33,672 nucleotides of DNA, taken from Desulfuromonas sp. (GTDB taxonomy: Bacteria; Desulfobacterota; Desulfuromonadia; Desulfuromonadales; Desulfuromonadaceae). Both the position numbers and the translations under genes were made by a program. Below are positions 2,415 through 22,129 of the stretch, piece after piece (the first letter of the stretch is position 1; each line of letters starts with the position of its first letter). The notes beneath the pieces were generated by a model, which saw only the letters and a list, made by a program, of their open reading frames with translations, had not been told where the DNA came from and ran no database searches. The stretch spans positions 1 to 33,672 of the forward strand of contig JAQUDG010000015.1 of assembly GCA_028685815.1 (NCBI GenBank), given 5' to 3'.

Positions 2415-3656
2415 ATGCACTATGCACATCGTCCAACCAGAGTAGAAATAGATTTAGGCGCTCTGCGCCATAATTTCACGCAGCTGCGCCGCAGTCTTAA
2501 TGCTGGCATCGCATCTGGGCATAATCATGCCAGAGGGGCCGATGCGGCCAAGGCTAATGTAGAGGTGCTGGCCGTGGTAAAGGCCGACGCATATGGACAT
2601 GGTGCGGTGCCTGTTGCCCAGACCTTGCAGGATGCCGGTGTCTCCATGTTCGGGGTCGCCATCGCCGAAGAAGGGCTGGAATTGCGCCGCGCCGGTATCG
2701 TACAACCAATCTTGATGTTGGGTGGAGCTTGGCCCGGTCAAGAAGATGTGGTGCTCTCGGAACAGATGCATACCGCTGTATTCGAGCTTGATCAACTCGA
2801 GCGCCTTAACTGTGCGGCCACGCGTCAAGGGCGGCGTTGCAACTGTCATATCAAGCTGGATACTGGGATGGGACGTCTGGGGCTTCAGCCTGAAGAATTA
2901 CCCCCTTTTCTAGCCGAATTAAAGCATTACCCTAACGTTGATATTGTAGGGGTTATGAGCCATCTTGCCTTGGCAGATGAGCCAGAAAGTCCCCTCAACG
3001 CTAGGCAGATGGAGATCTTTGCGCGTGGGGTGGAACAGATTCGTGCTGAGGGTTATGCGCCGCGTTATATCCATGCCTTCAACAGCGCCGCCAGTTTTTC
3101 CCCTCCGTGCCCCATGTGTAATCTAGTGCGCCCAGGGCTTGCCCTGTATGGCGGACAGCCTCTGGCCGATACACGCCTAGACTTGCGTCCGGTTATGAAT
3201 TTTAGAAGTAAAATTGCTCACTTGAAGTGGATTCCGGTCGGACGGGGAGTCTCTTATGGGCAACATTTTATCGCCACTAGACCAACCTTGATCGCAGCTG
3301 TACCCGTGGGCTACGCTGATGGTTACAATCGCCTGCTCTCCAATGGATTTGAGGCTATTGTGGGGAGGCGAAAAGTACCAGTGGCCGGCAATGTGTGCAT
3401 GGACTGGATTATGCTCGATGTCACCGATGTGCCCGATGTCGCGGTGCATGATGATGTCACTCTGCTGGGCTGTGAAGATGAGGTCTGTGTGTTTGCCGAA
3501 GATTGGGCCGAACGTATTGGCTCCATCTCTTACGAGGTGTTCTGTCAGGTGAGTAAACGGGTGCCGCGGGTGTATCTACCTGGTTCCGCCCCTGGCCCCG
3601 CGACTGCAATCACTGCAGCTTCAACCACGCTTGAATTTCGAGGAAGTCATGCCTGA
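2415..3656 (+). CDS. alr: Alanine racemase
   Basis: A PLP-dependent racemase that converts L-alanine to D-alanine for peptidoglycan precursors. The protein opens with RPTRVEIDLGALRHN, and the PLP lysine lies in AVVKADAYGHG (K56). Further family landmarks are KLDTGMGRLG, the SHLA segment, the NSAA segment and VRPGLALYG. The C-terminal domain carries the catalytic-tyrosine region GVSYGQ, then VGYADGYNR and GNVCMDWIMLD. Residues about 28-48 form a slightly long alanine- and histidine-containing insertion. The start at 2415 is chosen because homologues begin about six residues before EIDL. An in-frame GTG at 2370 would add 15 residues, and neither has a good Shine-Dalgarno. The next gene starts inside its last codons, so the two are likely translationally coupled. 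Confidence 0.95.
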   Translation: MHYAHRPTRVEIDLGALRHNFTQLRRSLNAGIASGHNHARGADAAKANVEVLAVVKADAYGHGAVPVAQTLQDAGVSMFGVAIAEEGLELRRAGIVQPILMLGGAWPGQEDVVLSEQMHTAVFELDQLERLNCAATRQGRRCNCHIKLDTGMGRLGLQPEELPPFLAELKHYPNVDIVGVMSHLALADEPESPLNARQMEIFARGVEQIRAEGYAPRYIHAFNSAASFSPPCPMCNLVRPGLALYGGQPLADTRLDLRPVMNFRSKIAHLKWIPVGRGVSYGQHFIATRPTLIAAVPVGYADGYNRLLSNGFEAIVGRRKVPVAGNVCMDWIMLDVTDVPDVAVHDDVTLLGCEDEVCVFAEDWAERIGSISYEVFCQVSKRVPRVYLPGSAPGPATAITAASTTLEFRGSHA

Positions 3657-4920
3657 TTATCGCCAGAAGGAACAACATGTAATGCTCGCCCTCGATCTGG
3701 GTACCACCACCCTTGGTGGTCAACTGGTAGATGCAGCAGGGCAGATTGTGGCGCAAGCCTCTATCTTCAACCCACAGCATCCATTCGGCCACGATATTAT
3801 CCGCCGCCTAGAACATGCAGCGCAACCAAGTGGCAGGCAGGAGCTGCAGCATGCCCTGTTTTGCGGAATTGCCGAGTTATTGGCTGTATTACTTAAAGAC
3901 AGCGGGGTTGAGGCCCAGGCAATTTCGAGTGCGGTGGCGGCGGGAAATTCCGGCATCACCCTAATGGCGCGGGGGGGAGACCCCACTGGTCTTCTGCGTC
4001 CGCCGTATCGTCCAGACAGCTGTGATGGCGTTACCCTGACGGTAGATACGCTGCCGGTTCCGCTATTTTTGTTCCCCTTGGCGGGGGGCTACGTTGGGGG
4101 TGATCTGCTTGCGGTGCTGTATGGTCTGGGTAATCCTGGTGCTGGTTCCCTTGTCGTGGATGTGGGAACCAACGCGGAGATGGCCCTGTTCGATGGAGAG
4201 CGCTGGCTTGTAACCTCAGTGGCCGCTGGCCCCGCTTTCGAGGGTGGAAACATCAGTTGCGGTATGTCGGCGCGCAGTGGGGCTATTCGTGGCGTACATC
4301 TTGAGGATGAACGCTTCTGCTTTGAAATTATCTCTGCCCCAGAGGGTTCAGGCGCGCACGTAGCGCCGCGCGGGCTGTGTGGCAGCGCCGTGGTTGAAGC
4401 CTTGGTCGCGGGGCTGCAGTCAGGTTTGGTGGGCCGTGATGGCACCCTTGCGGACCCCGATGATGTAGCGACAAGCCTTGCGCGCTATCTGGGGGTAGAG
4501 GATAGCGCGCAAGGGCAACAGGCATATCTGCGCTTATACCGCGATGCCGGTGTGGATTTGCGTCTGAGTCAGGAAGATATCCGCCAGCTTCAACTTGCGA
4601 AAGGGGCGGTACATGCCGGGGCACAATGCTTGGTGGAGCGCGCAGGAGTTGATCCTGCATCAATTGAACGCGTGTATATTACCGGGGCTCTGGGTGCAGC
4701 CATACGCCCAGAAATGTTGAAAGAAATTGCGCTGCTGCCGGAATATATGATAGAAAAGGTTGTGTTTAGCCCCGATGGAGTGCTCGGCGGTCTAGTGCAG
4801 TTTCTCAATGACAAAGACTCCGACCTTACCTTAAAAAAACTGCGTGAGAGGATCACTCTATACCCCCTTTCCGGCACCCCAGCATTTGAACGTGCTTTTG
4901 TGGGCGCCCTGAATTTTTAA
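3649..4920 (+). CDS. ASKHA-domain (DUF4445) protein, corrinoid-activator-like, without ferredoxin domain
   Basis: The protein belongs to the DUF4445/ASKHA ATPase family, whose characterised members (RACo, RamA) use ATP to reductively reactivate corrinoid proteins. Visible hallmarks are the phosphate-1 loop ALDLGTTTLGG at the N-terminus, VVDVGTNAEMALFDG, AGPAFEGGNISCG, GLCGSAVVEAL, DIRQLQLAKGAVHAG and YITGALGAA. Known members carry a 2Fe-2S ferredoxin domain and are much longer. This one starts directly at the actin-like domain, with about 413-423 residues and no CxxC cluster, so it would need a separate electron donor. The ATG at 3649 overlaps the alr stop by 8 nt behind GAGGAA. An ATG at 3679 behind AAGGA with 10-nt spacing is an equally good start. 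The true substrate is unknown. Confidence 0.8.
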   Translation: MPDYRQKEQHVMLALDLGTTTLGGQLVDAAGQIVAQASIFNPQHPFGHDIIRRLEHAAQPSGRQELQHALFCGIAELLAVLLKDSGVEAQAISSAVAAGNSGITLMARGGDPTGLLRPPYRPDSCDGVTLTVDTLPVPLFLFPLAGGYVGGDLLAVLYGLGNPGAGSLVVDVGTNAEMALFDGERWLVTSVAAGPAFEGGNISCGMSARSGAIRGVHLEDERFCFEIISAPEGSGAHVAPRGLCGSAVVEALVAGLQSGLVGRDGTLADPDDVATSLARYLGVEDSAQGQQAYLRLYRDAGVDLRLSQEDIRQLQLAKGAVHAGAQCLVERAGVDPASIERVYITGALGAAIRPEMLKEIALLPEYMIEKVVFSPDGVLGGLVQFLNDKDSDLTLKKLRERITLYPLSGTPAFERAFVGALNF

Positions 4921-5098: not shown

Positions 5099-6664
5099 AT
5101 GGCTGTTATCAAACGTGCACTGATAAGTGTTTCCGATAAAGAGGGAATCGTAGAGTTTGCCCGCGTTCTATCCGATTTTGGGGTAGAGATCCTCTCTACC
5201 GGAGGGACTGCAACTTTATTGCGGAATGAGGGGTTGACGGTAAAAGACGTTTCTGACTACACCGGATTTCCCGAAATGCTCGATGGTCGGGTGAAAACCC
5301 TGCATCCAAAGGTGCATGGCGCTCTATTGGGAATACGCGATAACCCAGCGCATGTCGCTAAAATGGCAGAACATGGCATTGAGCCCATCGATATGGTTGT
5401 GGTTAATTTGTATCCCTTCGAAGCCACCGTGGCCAAAGAGGGCTGCACCCTGGAAGACGCGATAGAAAATATCGACATCGGTGGCCCCACCATGTTGCGC
5501 AGCGCAGCTAAAAATAATCGTTTTGTCACGGTTGTGGTGGATAGCGCTGATTATGCCTCAGTGATCGAAGAGATGCGCGCCAGCGGTGGTTCAGTATCCG
5601 AGCAGAGCAATTTTCGTCTGGCAGTGAAGGTGTATCAGCACACAGCTGCATACGACGGTGCCATCTCCAACTGGCTCGGTTGCCGTATCGGTACAGAACA
5701 AACCCATTTCCCCGAGACGCTGTCACTGCAGTTTCAGCAGAAGCAGGTGATGCGCTACGGCGAAAACCCGCATCAGGATGCCGCATTCTATGTAGAAAAG
5801 GGCAATACCCAAGCAAACATAGCTACGGCAACGCAACTGCAGGGCAAGGAGCTGTCGTATAATAATATTGCCGATACCGATGCGGCGCTGGAGTGCATTA
5901 AACAGTTTGGCGAGTCCCCAGCTTGTGTCATTGTCAAGCACGCCAACCCGTGCGGTGTCGCGATGGCGGAAGATTTGCTCACCGCTTACGAGCGCGCATT
6001 TAGTACCGATAGTGAATCCGCCTTTGGTGGTATTATCGCCTTCAATCGCACCCTCGACGAGGCCACTGCTAAGGCGATCGTAGAGCGCCAATTTGTAGAG
6101 GTGATTATCGCACCCAAGATTAGTGCCGAAGCCCTTGAAGTGATTAAGGCCAAGAAAAATGTGCGCCTGCTCGAATGTGGTTCCTGGGCCGGACAGAATC
6201 AGACTCGGCTTGAATACAAACGGGTCAATGGTGGCCTGCTGGTGCAGGACGTGGACGCAGACCTCACCGCGGAAATGGAGGTGGTTACCAAACGCCAGCC
6301 CACCGAAAAAGAGATGGAAGACATGTTGTTCAGCTGGAGGGTGGCAAAGTTCGTGAAATCAAATGCCATCGTCTACGCCCGTGACAACATGACCATCGGT
6401 GTGGGTGCCGGTCAAATGAGTCGGGTGAATTCAGCGCGGATTGCAGCCATCAAGGCAGAACAAGCTGGTCTGGCAGTTAAGGGCTCAGCTATGGCGTCGG
6501 ATGCGTTCTTTCCGTTTCGCGATGGTCTAGATAATGCCGCCAAAGAAGGGGTGACCGCAGTTATCCAACCGGGCGGTTCGATCCGCGATCAGGAGGTTAT
6601 TGACGCTGCTGATGAACATGGTATCGCCATGGTGTTTACCGGCATGCGCCATTTCCGTCACTAG
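5099..6664 (+). CDS. purH: Bifunctional AICAR formyltransferase / IMP cyclohydrolase
   Basis: PurH catalyses the last two steps of de novo IMP synthesis: formylation of AICAR and ring closure. The 521-residue length is typical. The N-terminal MGS-like cyclohydrolase domain (about 1-190) shows [16 protein letters not shown] and [17 protein letters not shown]. The C-terminal transformylase domain has RYGENPHQ, the catalytic lysine and histidine in [21 protein letters not shown], and the C-terminal signature around SDAFFPFRD followed by the [13 protein letters not shown] segment. The start at 5099 has AGAAGG six bases upstream. It is first in a purH-purD-purE run with gaps of about 100 nt. Confidence 0.97.
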
Positions 6665-8733: not shown

Positions 8734-10089
8734 TTGACTCAAAAGAAACGTGGCTTTTTGATGGCCTTGTGGGATTTTTTCTGTTCCCTAAAATTATCGA
8801 TTTTTACCCTGATTATGTTGGCAGTGACGTCCATTATTGGAACAGTCCTCCAGCAGAATCAGACTAAAGAGCAGTATCTCCATGTCTTTAGCCCGAAAAC
8901 ATATGCAATTCTGGATAAAATGCAGATGTTTGATATGTACCACTCCACGTGGTTTATCGGGCTGCTCATGTTGTTCTGCGTCAACCTTATCTGCTGTTCA
9001 ATTAAGCGCCTGCCCAGGGTATGGAAAATAGTAACCAAGCCGACGCTGGTGCCGAGCCAGGCAGTCCTAGATGCGTTCCCTAATACAGTGGAACGCACCG
9101 TGCGTGGCAGCTTGAGTGAGATTCGCCCTAGGATGGAGGTATTTGTTAAAGATAATTTTGCCGCCACCCGCAGCACTGAAACTGATGACGGGGTATACCT
9201 CTACGCGGAAAAGAACAAATATGCACGTTTCGGTGTGTATGTCACCCACATGTCTATCCTGATTATTTTCACTGGGGCCATAATTGGAAATGTTTTTGGT
9301 TATAAGGCCTATGTCAATATCCCCGAGGGCGGTTCCATCGACAAGGTGTGGTTGCGTAGCGGCGAGCCCGTAGATCTGGGATTCAAGGTGACGTGCGAGG
9401 CTTTCTCCGTAAGTTATTACCCGGATTCTCAGCGCCCTAAAGAGTATAAGAGTATCCTCACCGTAGAAGAGGATGGCGTAGTAGTGGTGGACAAGCGCCC
9501 CATCATTGTTAACGACCCGATGACCCACAACGGCATAACCTTCTATCAGTCAAACTTCGGCCCCGCGGGCTCAGAAATAATGACCGTCAAGGCGAAGCTG
9601 CGCGGCGAAGACAAGGCGCAGGTATATACCCTGCGCAGAGGGGAAAAAGCGCAACTGCCCGATGGAACTAGCATAACTGCGGCGGACTTCACCACCTCGT
9701 ACCGTAACTTCGGCCCTGCAGCACGTCTGAATGTCAGAAAACAGGGCGAAGATGAGATTTCGGTTATTGTCTTCAAGAACTTCCCCGAGTTTGATCAGCA
9801 GCGTAAAGGAACCTACCTGTTCAGTCTGGAGGATTTTACCCAGCGCTATTACACCGGCCTGCAGGCCACCAAGGACCCGGGTGTATGGGTGGTGTGGTTG
9901 GGCTGTACCCTGATGGTCATTGGATCTCTGATAGCGTTTTTTGTCTCTCATCAGCGCATGTGGGTTGTGTTGCGTGAGAAGGATGGGAAGGTCCAAGTTC
10001 GATTGGTGGGAACTGCGCACCGGAATCAACCTGCGTACGAGCTTTACTTTGATAAGCTCAAAGAGGCATTTAACAAACACCTAGCGTAG
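8734..10089 (+). CDS. resB: Cytochrome c biogenesis protein ResB/Ccs1
   Basis: ResB pairs with CcsA to form the System II synthase that exports haem and attaches it to apocytochrome c outside the membrane. The 451-residue protein has hydrophobic segments at about 20-38, 72-90 and 168-190, a large extracytoplasmic domain, and a last segment at about 384-405 before a basic tail. The family-typical GITFYQSNFGPAG stretch occurs in the extracytoplasmic part. The TTG start at 8734 is favoured by AAGGAG ten bases upstream; the next ATG (8761) would cut into the cytoplasmic lead. A GC-rich hairpin (arms 8684-8689 and 8712-8717) ends exactly where that Shine-Dalgarno begins. Confidence 0.92.
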   Translation: MTQKKRGFLMALWDFFCSLKLSIFTLIMLAVTSIIGTVLQQNQTKEQYLHVFSPKTYAILDKMQMFDMYHSTWFIGLLMLFCVNLICCSIKRLPRVWKIVTKPTLVPSQAVLDAFPNTVERTVRGSLSEIRPRMEVFVKDNFAATRSTETDDGVYLYAEKNKYARFGVYVTHMSILIIFTGAIIGNVFGYKAYVNIPEGGSIDKVWLRSGEPVDLGFKVTCEAFSVSYYPDSQRPKEYKSILTVEEDGVVVVDKRPIIVNDPMTHNGITFYQSNFGPAGSEIMTVKAKLRGEDKAQVYTLRRGEKAQLPDGTSITAADFTTSYRNFGPAARLNVRKQGEDEISVIVFKNFPEFDQQRKGTYLFSLEDFTQRYYTGLQATKDPGVWVVWLGCTLMVIGSLIAFFVSHQRMWVVLREKDGKVQVRLVGTAHRNQPAYELYFDKLKEAFNKHLA

Positions 10090-20176: not shown

Positions 20177-22129
20177 ATGAAACAGGCGCAACCGTTTGAT
20201 ATGGGATTTTTACGCGTGGCGGCGGTTTCTCCGCAACTGCGGGTAGCGGATGTGGAATTCAACCTTAAGCAGATATCTGCGCTGGTGCGGCGTGCGGTGG
20301 CAGAAAAAATTCAGGTGGTGGTGTTTCCCGAATTGGCTTTGTGCGCTTATACCTGTGCCGATCTGTTTTTTCAGCAGGTGCTGATTGAGCAGGTGGAGTT
20401 GGCGCTGCTACGCCTAGCTAAAAAGAGTGCGGAATGCGATGCGGTTGTGCTTGTCGGCGCACCGTTGGCGCAGGGCGGTAAATTGTTTAACTGTGCGGTG
20501 GTAATTAACCACGGTTCTATCCTCGGGGTTGTCCCTAAGACGTTTCTTCCTAATACTAGAGAATCGAGTGAAGGGCGTTGGTTTGCCAGTGCCCACATGC
20601 GCACTAGCGCCACGATCTGCGTTGGGGGCATCGAGGTGCCGTTTGGGGAAGATCTGCTGTTTCAGCACCCGCACAATAGAGAGTGTTGCCTAGGGGTGGA
20701 GATCTGCGAGGACGCCTGGAGCGCCTGTCCCGGTAGTGGCGAGATGGCCCAGGCTGGAGCCACCCTTATCTGCAACCTTGCGGCGAGTCCGGAAGTGCTC
20801 GGCGCGGCGAACTATCGGCGCCAGTTGGTGGAGGCGCAATCGGCGCGTTGCCTTGCCGCTTATGTGTATGCTTCAGCGGGAGCGGGGGAGTCGAGCACCG
20901 ACATGGTGTTTGCTGGCCATTGTCTCATTGCCGAGAACGGCACGCTACTGACGCAGTCCGAGCGTTTTGGCTTTGCGGATAAAATGATCAGCGCTGATGT
21001 CGATCTGCAACATCTGGCTTTGGAACGCCGCGCACACAACACTTTTGCTGCGACACCTGCTACGCGTGCATTTAGGCGCGTGGCGTGCTCGACTGGTACC
21101 TGGGCGGGTGCGGAGCTTCAGCGCGCCGTTGCGCGTAACCCCTTTGTGCCCTCAGATGGCGCGCAACTCTCCGCGCGTTGTGAGGAAGTTTTCGCGCTCC
21201 AGACTACGGCGTTGGCGCAGCGGCTCCGGCATACGGGTTCGCGCTGTGGGGTGGTGGGAGTCTCCGGTGGGCTGGATTCCACTCTGGCGCTGCTGGTAAT
21301 GGTACGCGCGTTTGAGCTGCTTGGCCTGGAACGCAGCGGTATTATTGGAATCTCCATGCCGGGTTTCGGCACTACCGGCAGAACCAGAAATAATGCGGAA
21401 CGGCTGATTGATTATCTGGGTGTGAGTAAACGGGTAATCAGTATTGATGCTGCAGTGCGGCAGCATTTCAGTGATATCGGCCATGATGAAAATGTGCTTG
21501 ATATTACCTACGAAAATGCGCAGGCGCGTGAACGCACCCAGATTTTGATGGATATAGCGAATCAACAGGGGGGGCTGGTTATCGGCACCGGCGATTTGTC
21601 TGAGATGGCGCTGGGTTGGTGCACGTACAATGCCGATCATATGTCTATGTACAGTGTGAATTGCGGCGTGCCGAAGACGTTGGTGCGTTATATGGTGGAG
21701 TGGTGCGCGCCGAGCCAGCTTTCTGGGCCTGTCCGAGAGATACTTATGGATATTTGTGCCACCCCCATTTCACCAGAGCTACTTCCCCCTAGTGAGGATG
21801 GGGCTATCCAGCAGTTGACGGAGGCGCATGTCGGCCCCTATGAGCTGCACGATTTCTTTTTGTTTCATGTGGTGCGTAACCAGTTCGCGCCGCGTAAAAT
21901 CATGTATTTAGCCCGAACGGCTTTCGCAGGGCGGTATTCCCCTGCGGAGATAAAGCGCTGGCTCCATTATTTCTATTCCCGCTTTTTTTCGCAGCAGTTC
22001 AAGCGTTCATGTGTGCCGGATGGCCCCAAGGTTGGGAGTGTTGCCCTGTCACCGCGCGGTGATTGGCGCATGCCTAGCGACGCCAGTGCCGCTGTGTGGC
22101 TGGCCGAAGTTGAGGCTTTGGATGTCTGA
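20177..22129 (+). CDS. nadE: Glutamine-dependent NAD+ synthetase
   Basis: This enzyme amidates nicotinic acid adenine dinucleotide to NAD+, taking ammonia from glutamine. The 650-residue protein is the long two-domain form. The N-terminal nitrilase-fold glutaminase (about 10-290) has the triad E52, K121 and C177 (FPELAL, VPKTF, EICEDAW). The C-terminal synthetase domain carries the PP-loop SGGLDS at 363-368 and later GTGDLSE-ALGWCTYNADHM. The ATG at 20177 lacks a good Shine-Dalgarno; an ATG at 20201 is an alternative. rsmI starts inside its last codons, suggesting coupling. The product feeds the NAD-dependent LigA encoded nearby. Confidence 0.96.
   Translation: MKQAQPFDMGFLRVAAVSPQLRVADVEFNLKQISALVRRAVAEKIQVVVFPELALCAYTCADLFFQQVLIEQVELALLRLAKKSAECDAVVLVGAPLAQGGKLFNCAVVINHGSILGVVPKTFLPNTRESSEGRWFASAHMRTSATICVGGIEVPFGEDLLFQHPHNRECCLGVEICEDAWSACPGSGEMAQAGATLICNLAASPEVLGAANYRRQLVEAQSARCLAAYVYASAGAGESSTDMVFAGHCLIAENGTLLTQSERFGFADKMISADVDLQHLALERRAHNTFAATPATRAFRRVACSTGTWAGAELQRAVARNPFVPSDGAQLSARCEEVFALQTTALAQRLRHTGSRCGVVGVSGGLDSTLALLVMVRAFELLGLERSGIIGISMPGFGTTGRTRNNAERLIDYLGVSKRVISIDAAVRQHFSDIGHDENVLDITYENAQARERTQILMDIANQQGGLVIGTGDLSEMALGWCTYNADHMSMYSVNCGVPKTLVRYMVEWCAPSQLSGPVREILMDICATPISPELLPPSEDGAIQQLTEAHVGPYELHDFFLFHVVRNQFAPRKIMYLARTAFAGRYSPAEIKRWLHYFYSRFFSQQFKRSCVPDGPKVGSVALSPRGDWRMPSDASAAVWLAEVEALDV

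Follow-up and report, generated by a model that had tools for sequence, protein, structure and literature searches.

The window analysed here, a 33,672-nucleotide stretch of a Desulfuromonas contig, contains a gene whose product resembles the ATPase part of a corrinoid-protein activator, carries no iron-sulfur (Fe-S) domain and is encoded in overlap with the gene for alanine racemase. Which protein could such an ATPase serve, and how could it do so without a redox centre of its own? The initial annotation had described it as a ferredoxin-less, corrinoid-activator-like ASKHA protein coupled to alanine racemase. The following features bear on these questions:

2415-3656, + strand: alr, alanine racemase, the upstream neighbour (TIGR00492 over cut-off)
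3649-4920, + strand: DUF4445/RACo-type ASKHA ATPase without a ferredoxin domain (423 aa, ATG at 3649)
3685-3711, + strand: LALDLGTTT, residues 13-21, presumably the first nucleotide-binding motif (D16, G18 and T20 invariant in 49 aligned short forms)
4159-4179, + strand: DVGTNAE, residues 171-177, presumably the second nucleotide-binding motif (from the same 49-sequence alignment of short forms)
5099-6664, + strand: purH, the downstream neighbour (AICARFT_IMPCHas and MGS domains)

The ATPase core and its missing ferredoxin domain

The 423-residue protein matches two Pfam families over their cut-offs and no others: Raco_middle (PF17651) at residues 13-158 and RACo_C_ter/DUF4445 (PF14574) at residues 167-422, the latter with 184.4 bits against a curated cut-off of 27. 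Its C-terminus lies one residue past the PF14574 match. In a phmmer search, residues 12-420 aligned with residues 208-616 of RACo (3zyy; E 1.4e-45). An AlphaFold2 model built from 49 aligned short forms (mean pLDDT 94.6, pTM 0.92) returned RACo as all of the best four chains in a Foldseek search against the PDB, and VIA-align superposed 407 residues of the model on residues 197-619 of 3zyy chain Y (Z 47.0, rmsd 3.0); the next different protein scored a Z of 16.1. The fold is common to chaperone and kinase ATPases. Given these matches in sequence and predicted structure, the protein appears to be the whole two-lobed ATPase core of RACo, minus its ferredoxin and linker domains. The likeness to corrinoid activators noted at the outset is thus upheld. 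The accompanying statement that only the DUF4445 ATPase part is encoded stands as far as it describes an ATPase without Fe-S, but misses the PF17651 middle half, with which the ASKHA core is whole. Residues D16, G18 and T20 of the first motif region are common to the long, ferredoxin-bearing forms as well, and D171, G173, T174, N175 and E177 of the second are invariant in the 49 aligned short forms. Both motifs are conserved in 51 class-level short forms as they are in long forms.

Neither Fer2 nor RACo_linker was among the Pfam matches of the protein up to an E-value of 1, and the protein ends with PF14574, in agreement with the claim that it has no N- or C-terminal Fe-S domain. As a positive control, 25 long DUF4445 proteins were scanned: Fer2 was found over the cut-off in 21 and below it in 4, the latter being members of family f62 (L214, L215, L216 and L217) on a deep branch. 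Because alr fills the DNA immediately upstream, there is no space for a hidden N-terminal Fe-S domain.

A phylogeny of DUF4445 proteins with and without Fe-S domains had been suggested, and it places the short forms together. The tree covers 104 ASKHA cores and gathers the Fer2-less forms in a single group (56 rows; SH-aLRT 92, not starred), 51 of whose rows form a class-level group (SH-aLRT 99); RACo itself falls in a separate group. In this tree the label 'Fd' denotes more than 90 in-frame residues ahead of the core, and the Fer2 scan covered 25 of the 47 other long rows. The 53 rows labelled short have an in-frame stretch of at most 72 aa ahead of the core. Two of the 56 rows (L099 and L011, the latter the same gene as L106) have longer frames, which run upstream over alr and contain no Fer2. 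Left out of the tree were rows with identical cores and L001-L005, L085, L093, L126 and L212, as duplicates, fragments or sequences with frame problems (L005 without a recorded reason). Besides the window's order, short forms turned up in Geomonas limicola, in two further families of the same class (f22 and f23) and in five genomes from other classes. As the short group is flanked on either side by long forms in this midpoint-rooted tree, the simplest reading is that the ferredoxin domain was lost in the ancestor of the short group. No cysteine is invariant among the 51 class-level short forms. A redox role for conserved cysteines was considered and rejected: a cysteine is often present at positions 204, 244 and 327 but at none of them always, and at 244 it is common in the long forms as well.

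Gene order around alr and purH

The 8-nucleotide overlap with alr was confirmed, the alr stop codon lying at 3654-3656 and the ATG of the DUF4445 gene at 3649, and the neighbourhood, whose conservation the initial annotation had proposed to check, is indeed conserved. The usual row, with names assigned from Pfam and similarity, reads ThiC, ThiED (opposite strand), then Alr, DUF4445, PurH, PurD, PurE and ResB. Elsewhere in the window, the + strand carries a 650-aa open reading frame with 20 cysteines at 20177-22129.

Of 42 loci compared, 4 are long paralogues; 28 of the other 38 have Alr, DUF4445 and PurH side by side. Two more (L085 and L099) have the three genes in the same order by tblastn, and extra open reading frames interrupt the row in L040, L087, L089 and L105. 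L110 is without Alr, L102 and L126 are truncated by contig ends, and L118 holds a remnant only. The spacing from Alr to DUF4445 ranges from overlap up to 1.6 kb, and in Geomonas limicola a gene with AIRS domains, which we take to be SelD-like, lies between the two. None of the 42 loci contains metH, and no electron carrier gene stands beside DUF4445 in the 28 contiguous loci.

The pairing with alr persists as a pairing of alr with purH in genomes from which DUF4445 is missing. Alr stands immediately before PurH, with no DUF4445 between them, in 13 of the 14 loci read from such genomes; the 13 include G081, a genome in which no cap-B12 protein was found, and the exception is G048, where no Alr was found nearby. 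Since the Alr-PurH order is kept where DUF4445 is gone, alr is a neighbour by inherited gene order and not a functional partner. The same applies to purH, which we do not propose as a partner either. Alanine racemase was accordingly rejected as the partner, and with it the coupling that had been claimed.

Association with one type of methionine synthase

A search for corrinoid methyltransferases, also suggested at the outset, pointed to a likely substrate. The window's genome encodes a single cap-type (PF02607) B12 protein, an 804-residue methionine synthase (MetH) with Hcy, pterin, cap and B12 domains, which ends after the B12 domain and so has no reactivation domain. No match to PF02965, described as reactivating B12 by reduction to Co(I) in the available part of a fitness study (PMC5764234), was found anywhere in this genome. 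Nor was there a match to CdhD/CFeSP (PF03599), which rules out CFeSP as the substrate. A look for a second, full-length activator had been suggested as well; apart from the gene at 3649-4920, the genome gave no PF14574 match.

Across 98 genomes of the order, we cross-tabulated matches to PF14574, PF02965 and PF02607. MetH-like proteins were open frames of 500 aa or more, two shorter ones in G011 and G088 being admitted by hand, and a MetH without PF02965 nearby was counted as PF02965-less. DUF4445 counts are of matches, the short form being established at the loci that were read, and partial matches in G028 and G067 were counted as absent. The gene was present in 72 of 77 genomes with a PF02965-less MetH and absent from 18 of the 21 without one (present in 3; Fisher's p = 1.8e-12, kinship ignored). 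Among genomes at least 90% complete, it was found in 55 of 57 with a PF02965-less MetH against 1 of 17 without, and the same split runs through family f8 (3/3 against 0/11). All seven genomes with both MetH types keep DUF4445. Of the 16 with solely a PF02965-bearing MetH-like protein, 14 lack DUF4445, G097 has the gene, and G067 retains a remnant between alr and purH (L118:5881-6294) that has lost a large internal stretch and contains an in-frame stop. Thus, the DUF4445 gene tracks the type of methionine synthase, not alr, in counts for which the kinship-corrected test (below) is not significant.

Four of the five misses (G011, G035, G057 and G065) are likely assembly gaps at the locus, as no intact PurH was found there either; the genome of the fifth, G028, is 73% complete and gives a partial DUF4445 match. 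G057 (7% contamination) also encodes a stand-alone 218-aa PF02965 protein (L120:5950-6606) alongside a MetH without that domain. The counter-cases are G097 (87% complete), where only a fused MetH was found, and G041 and G052, where DUF4445 is present and no cap-B12 protein was found.

Outside the order, all eight short-form genomes lack PF02965 and have a cap-B12 protein in a frame of about 800 aa. Among six DUF4445-less genomes searched alongside these, G195 and G149 carry PF02965 together with the cap domain, and the search found no cap-B12 protein in G135 or G159. The remaining two, G127 and G129, belong to other classes; each encodes a cap-B12 protein in a frame of about 805-810 aa and shows only a weak PF02965 match in a separate frame of about 240 aa. 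They could rely on a protein like TM0269, which we take to be a stand-alone form of the PF02965 activation domain. In G005, a second MetH of 822 aa lies near a 239-aa protein with a weak PF02965 match (L124:6048-10920), a set that in our view resembles the TM0268/TM0269 arrangement; G002 and G009 have similar PF02965 and cap-domain matches. The replacement MetH type, as read in G078, consists of two genes, one for a separate Hcy domain and one for a pterin-cap-B12-activation protein, an arrangement also described for Burkholderia phytofirmans in the available text of PMC7311316.

Shared ancestry could inflate such counts, and the association was therefore placed on a kinship tree of 52 genomes built from Alr, PurH and PurD. 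On this tree both DUF4445 and PF02965-less MetH undergo at least 5 changes of state; the well-supported branches give 4 independent pairs, and using all branches gives 5. Loss of PF02965-less MetH goes with loss of DUF4445 in a mean of 3.8 of 4 pairs and in the opposite direction in none (p 0.125, the minimum attainable with 4 pairs). When the trait scored is instead the presence of the fused type, 2.3 pairs agree with expectation, 0.3 go against it and 1.5 show no difference (p 0.5). The tree-corrected test is not significant because independent events are few (4-5). The G067 remnant and the 8/8 fit outside the order lend extra weight to the link with MetH.

A small gene beside metH served as a negative control. 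In the window's genome it lies next to metH (L119:6024-6458) and encodes a 145-aa protein with a RomY domain at its N-terminus; many relatives carry it near metH, and it is kept also with the other MetH type. It was matched by 40 loci (including the query's own, L032 and L119; some loci overlap) and is present in 92 of 98 genomes, among them all 14 fused-type genomes without DUF4445. Its presence with the other metH type led us to drop it as a third MetH partner, and its near-universal distribution indicates that membership of the order alone does not produce the DUF4445 pattern.

Three genomes (G002, G024 and G062) carry long, Fer2-bearing DUF4445 genes in addition to the retained short gene. 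A DUF1638 gene adjoins the long gene in G062, a DUF1638 gene and a 220-aa corrinoid protein lie near one long gene in G024, and the one gene scanned near the long form of G002 is YibE/F-like. On the basis of these three genomes, there may be a division of labour, long forms going with dedicated methyltransferases and the short form with MetH. The long-paralogue neighbourhoods with DUF1638 genes and, in L096, the small corrinoid protein are at L096:1371-2033 and 8734-9405 and at L112:6729-7478.

Proposed role and relation to known activators

Based on the genomic link to MetH without PF02965, MetH is a well-supported target. We propose that the gene probably encodes the ATPase engine of a RACo/RamA-type reactivator for MetH that lacks an activation domain, with the electron coming from a separate carrier. 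The cycle would start once MetH has been inactivated by oxidation of its cobalamin to Co(II). The DUF4445 protein would then bind the B12 module of MetH, ATP binding and hydrolysis would lift the Co(II)/Co(I) potential, and a separate low-potential carrier (a ferredoxin or flavodoxin) would hand an electron to the MetH cobalamin. In the O-demethylase system, binding of the nucleotide-bound activator and ATP hydrolysis shift the corrinoid from -530 to -250 mV, and the same 2019 paper describes the activators of ATP-driven electron transfer as Fe/S cluster proteins 'in all known cases' (PMC6739815). If it is the ATPase core that performs the potential shift, then a core without Fe-S could still function with an external carrier.

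MetH could also be served without electron transfer, by ATP-driven remodelling or cobalamin exchange that swaps or reloads damaged B12, for which the diol dehydratase reactivases offer a comparison. Such a role would suit a protein with no Fe-S domain and no invariant cysteine in 51 short forms, hence no evident redox centre, and with a fold shared by chaperone and kinase ATPases; the co-occurrence with MetH fits it equally. However, the protein is far nearer to RACo (Z 47.0) than to the next different protein (Z 16.1), and the PF02965 domain with which it alternates is described as reductive, to Co(I), in what was available of PMC5764234. We therefore consider exchange a rather unlikely account.

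Less probable again is that the protein activates another corrinoid or radical enzyme and that the link with MetH type reflects lineage history only. The window's genome has seven further PF02310 matches among which such an enzyme might lie, and the tree-corrected test falls below significance. Yet the cap domain occurs there only in MetH, CFeSP is absent, and the one of the seven matches that was read (L033) is a radical SAM protein. Lineage history also sits poorly with the split within family f8, where relatives differ in DUF4445 according to PF02965-less MetH, and with neighbours, Alr and PurH, that remain where DUF4445 is gone.

A role in alanine racemization, the cell wall or purine synthesis, which the conserved Alr-DUF4445-PurH order and the overlap in the window might suggest, is very improbable and largely refuted by the 13 loci that retain Alr and PurH without DUF4445, by the variable spacing to Alr and by the intervening AIRS-domain gene in Geomonas limicola. 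Finally, the chance that a sequencing error, frameshift or misassembly conceals an Fe-S domain is negligible, as alr lies immediately upstream, the short architecture is conserved across the 53 short rows and the two rows with longer frames hold no Fer2.

Returning to reactivation by an ATPase core with a separate electron carrier, we lean towards a class of RACo/RamA-type activators without a metal centre, dedicated to MetH and drawing its electron from a soluble carrier (or performing ATP-driven cobalamin repair instead). If so, the conserved Fe-S-less group would identify the ATPase core as the part that these activators cannot do without, and the short form would be a minimal natural protein for testing whether ATP pays for the corrinoid potential shift. 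It would also explain how most genomes of the order sustain a MetH lacking the reactivation domain, and would allow annotation pipelines to fill this gap in MetH reactivation.

Both ATP-dependent corrinoid reactivators and DUF4445 proteins as MetH reactivators have been reported. In Desulfovibrio and Phaeobacter, DUF4445 proteins were found to be co-fit with MetH and were inferred from fitness data to reactivate its B12 (PMC5764234, available part), and RamA and DUF1638 proteins of R. pomeroyi were more abundant on N-osmolytes (PMC12478193, available part). In the open-licence literature we found no report of a DUF4445 protein lacking an Fe-S domain, the available text of PMC5764234 giving no domain status for the Desulfovibrio proteins and the available parts of PMC7857596, PMC10567725 and PMC7005905 containing nothing on such a protein; nor did we find there any account of its exchange for the activation domain of MetH at a constant locus.

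Like RACo, the window protein retains the full ASKHA core and the ATP-site residues; unlike RACo, it is without the [2Fe-2S] and linker domains, scores 190.9 bits against the cut-off of 800 of the RACo/AcsV equivalog NF040756, and occurs in a genome that lacks the RACo substrate, CFeSP. RamA (TIGR04270), the activator of methylamine methyltransferases, matches partially over the ATPase part (84.1 bits, cut-off 500) and carries a C-terminal 4Fe-4S part that the window protein does not have. The PF02965 domain of MetH acts via SAM-dependent reductive methylation. This domain and TM0269 belong to a separate family from DUF4445, for which we propose the same role towards MetH and which alternates with PF02965 across genomes. 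The RamA-like proteins of Phaeobacter and Desulfovibrio are alike in that a DUF4445 ATPase is linked to a PF02965-less methionine synthase, but the Phaeobacter activator, as far as the available text describes it, differs from the short form in having a ferredoxin domain and a DUF1638 partner (PMC5764234).
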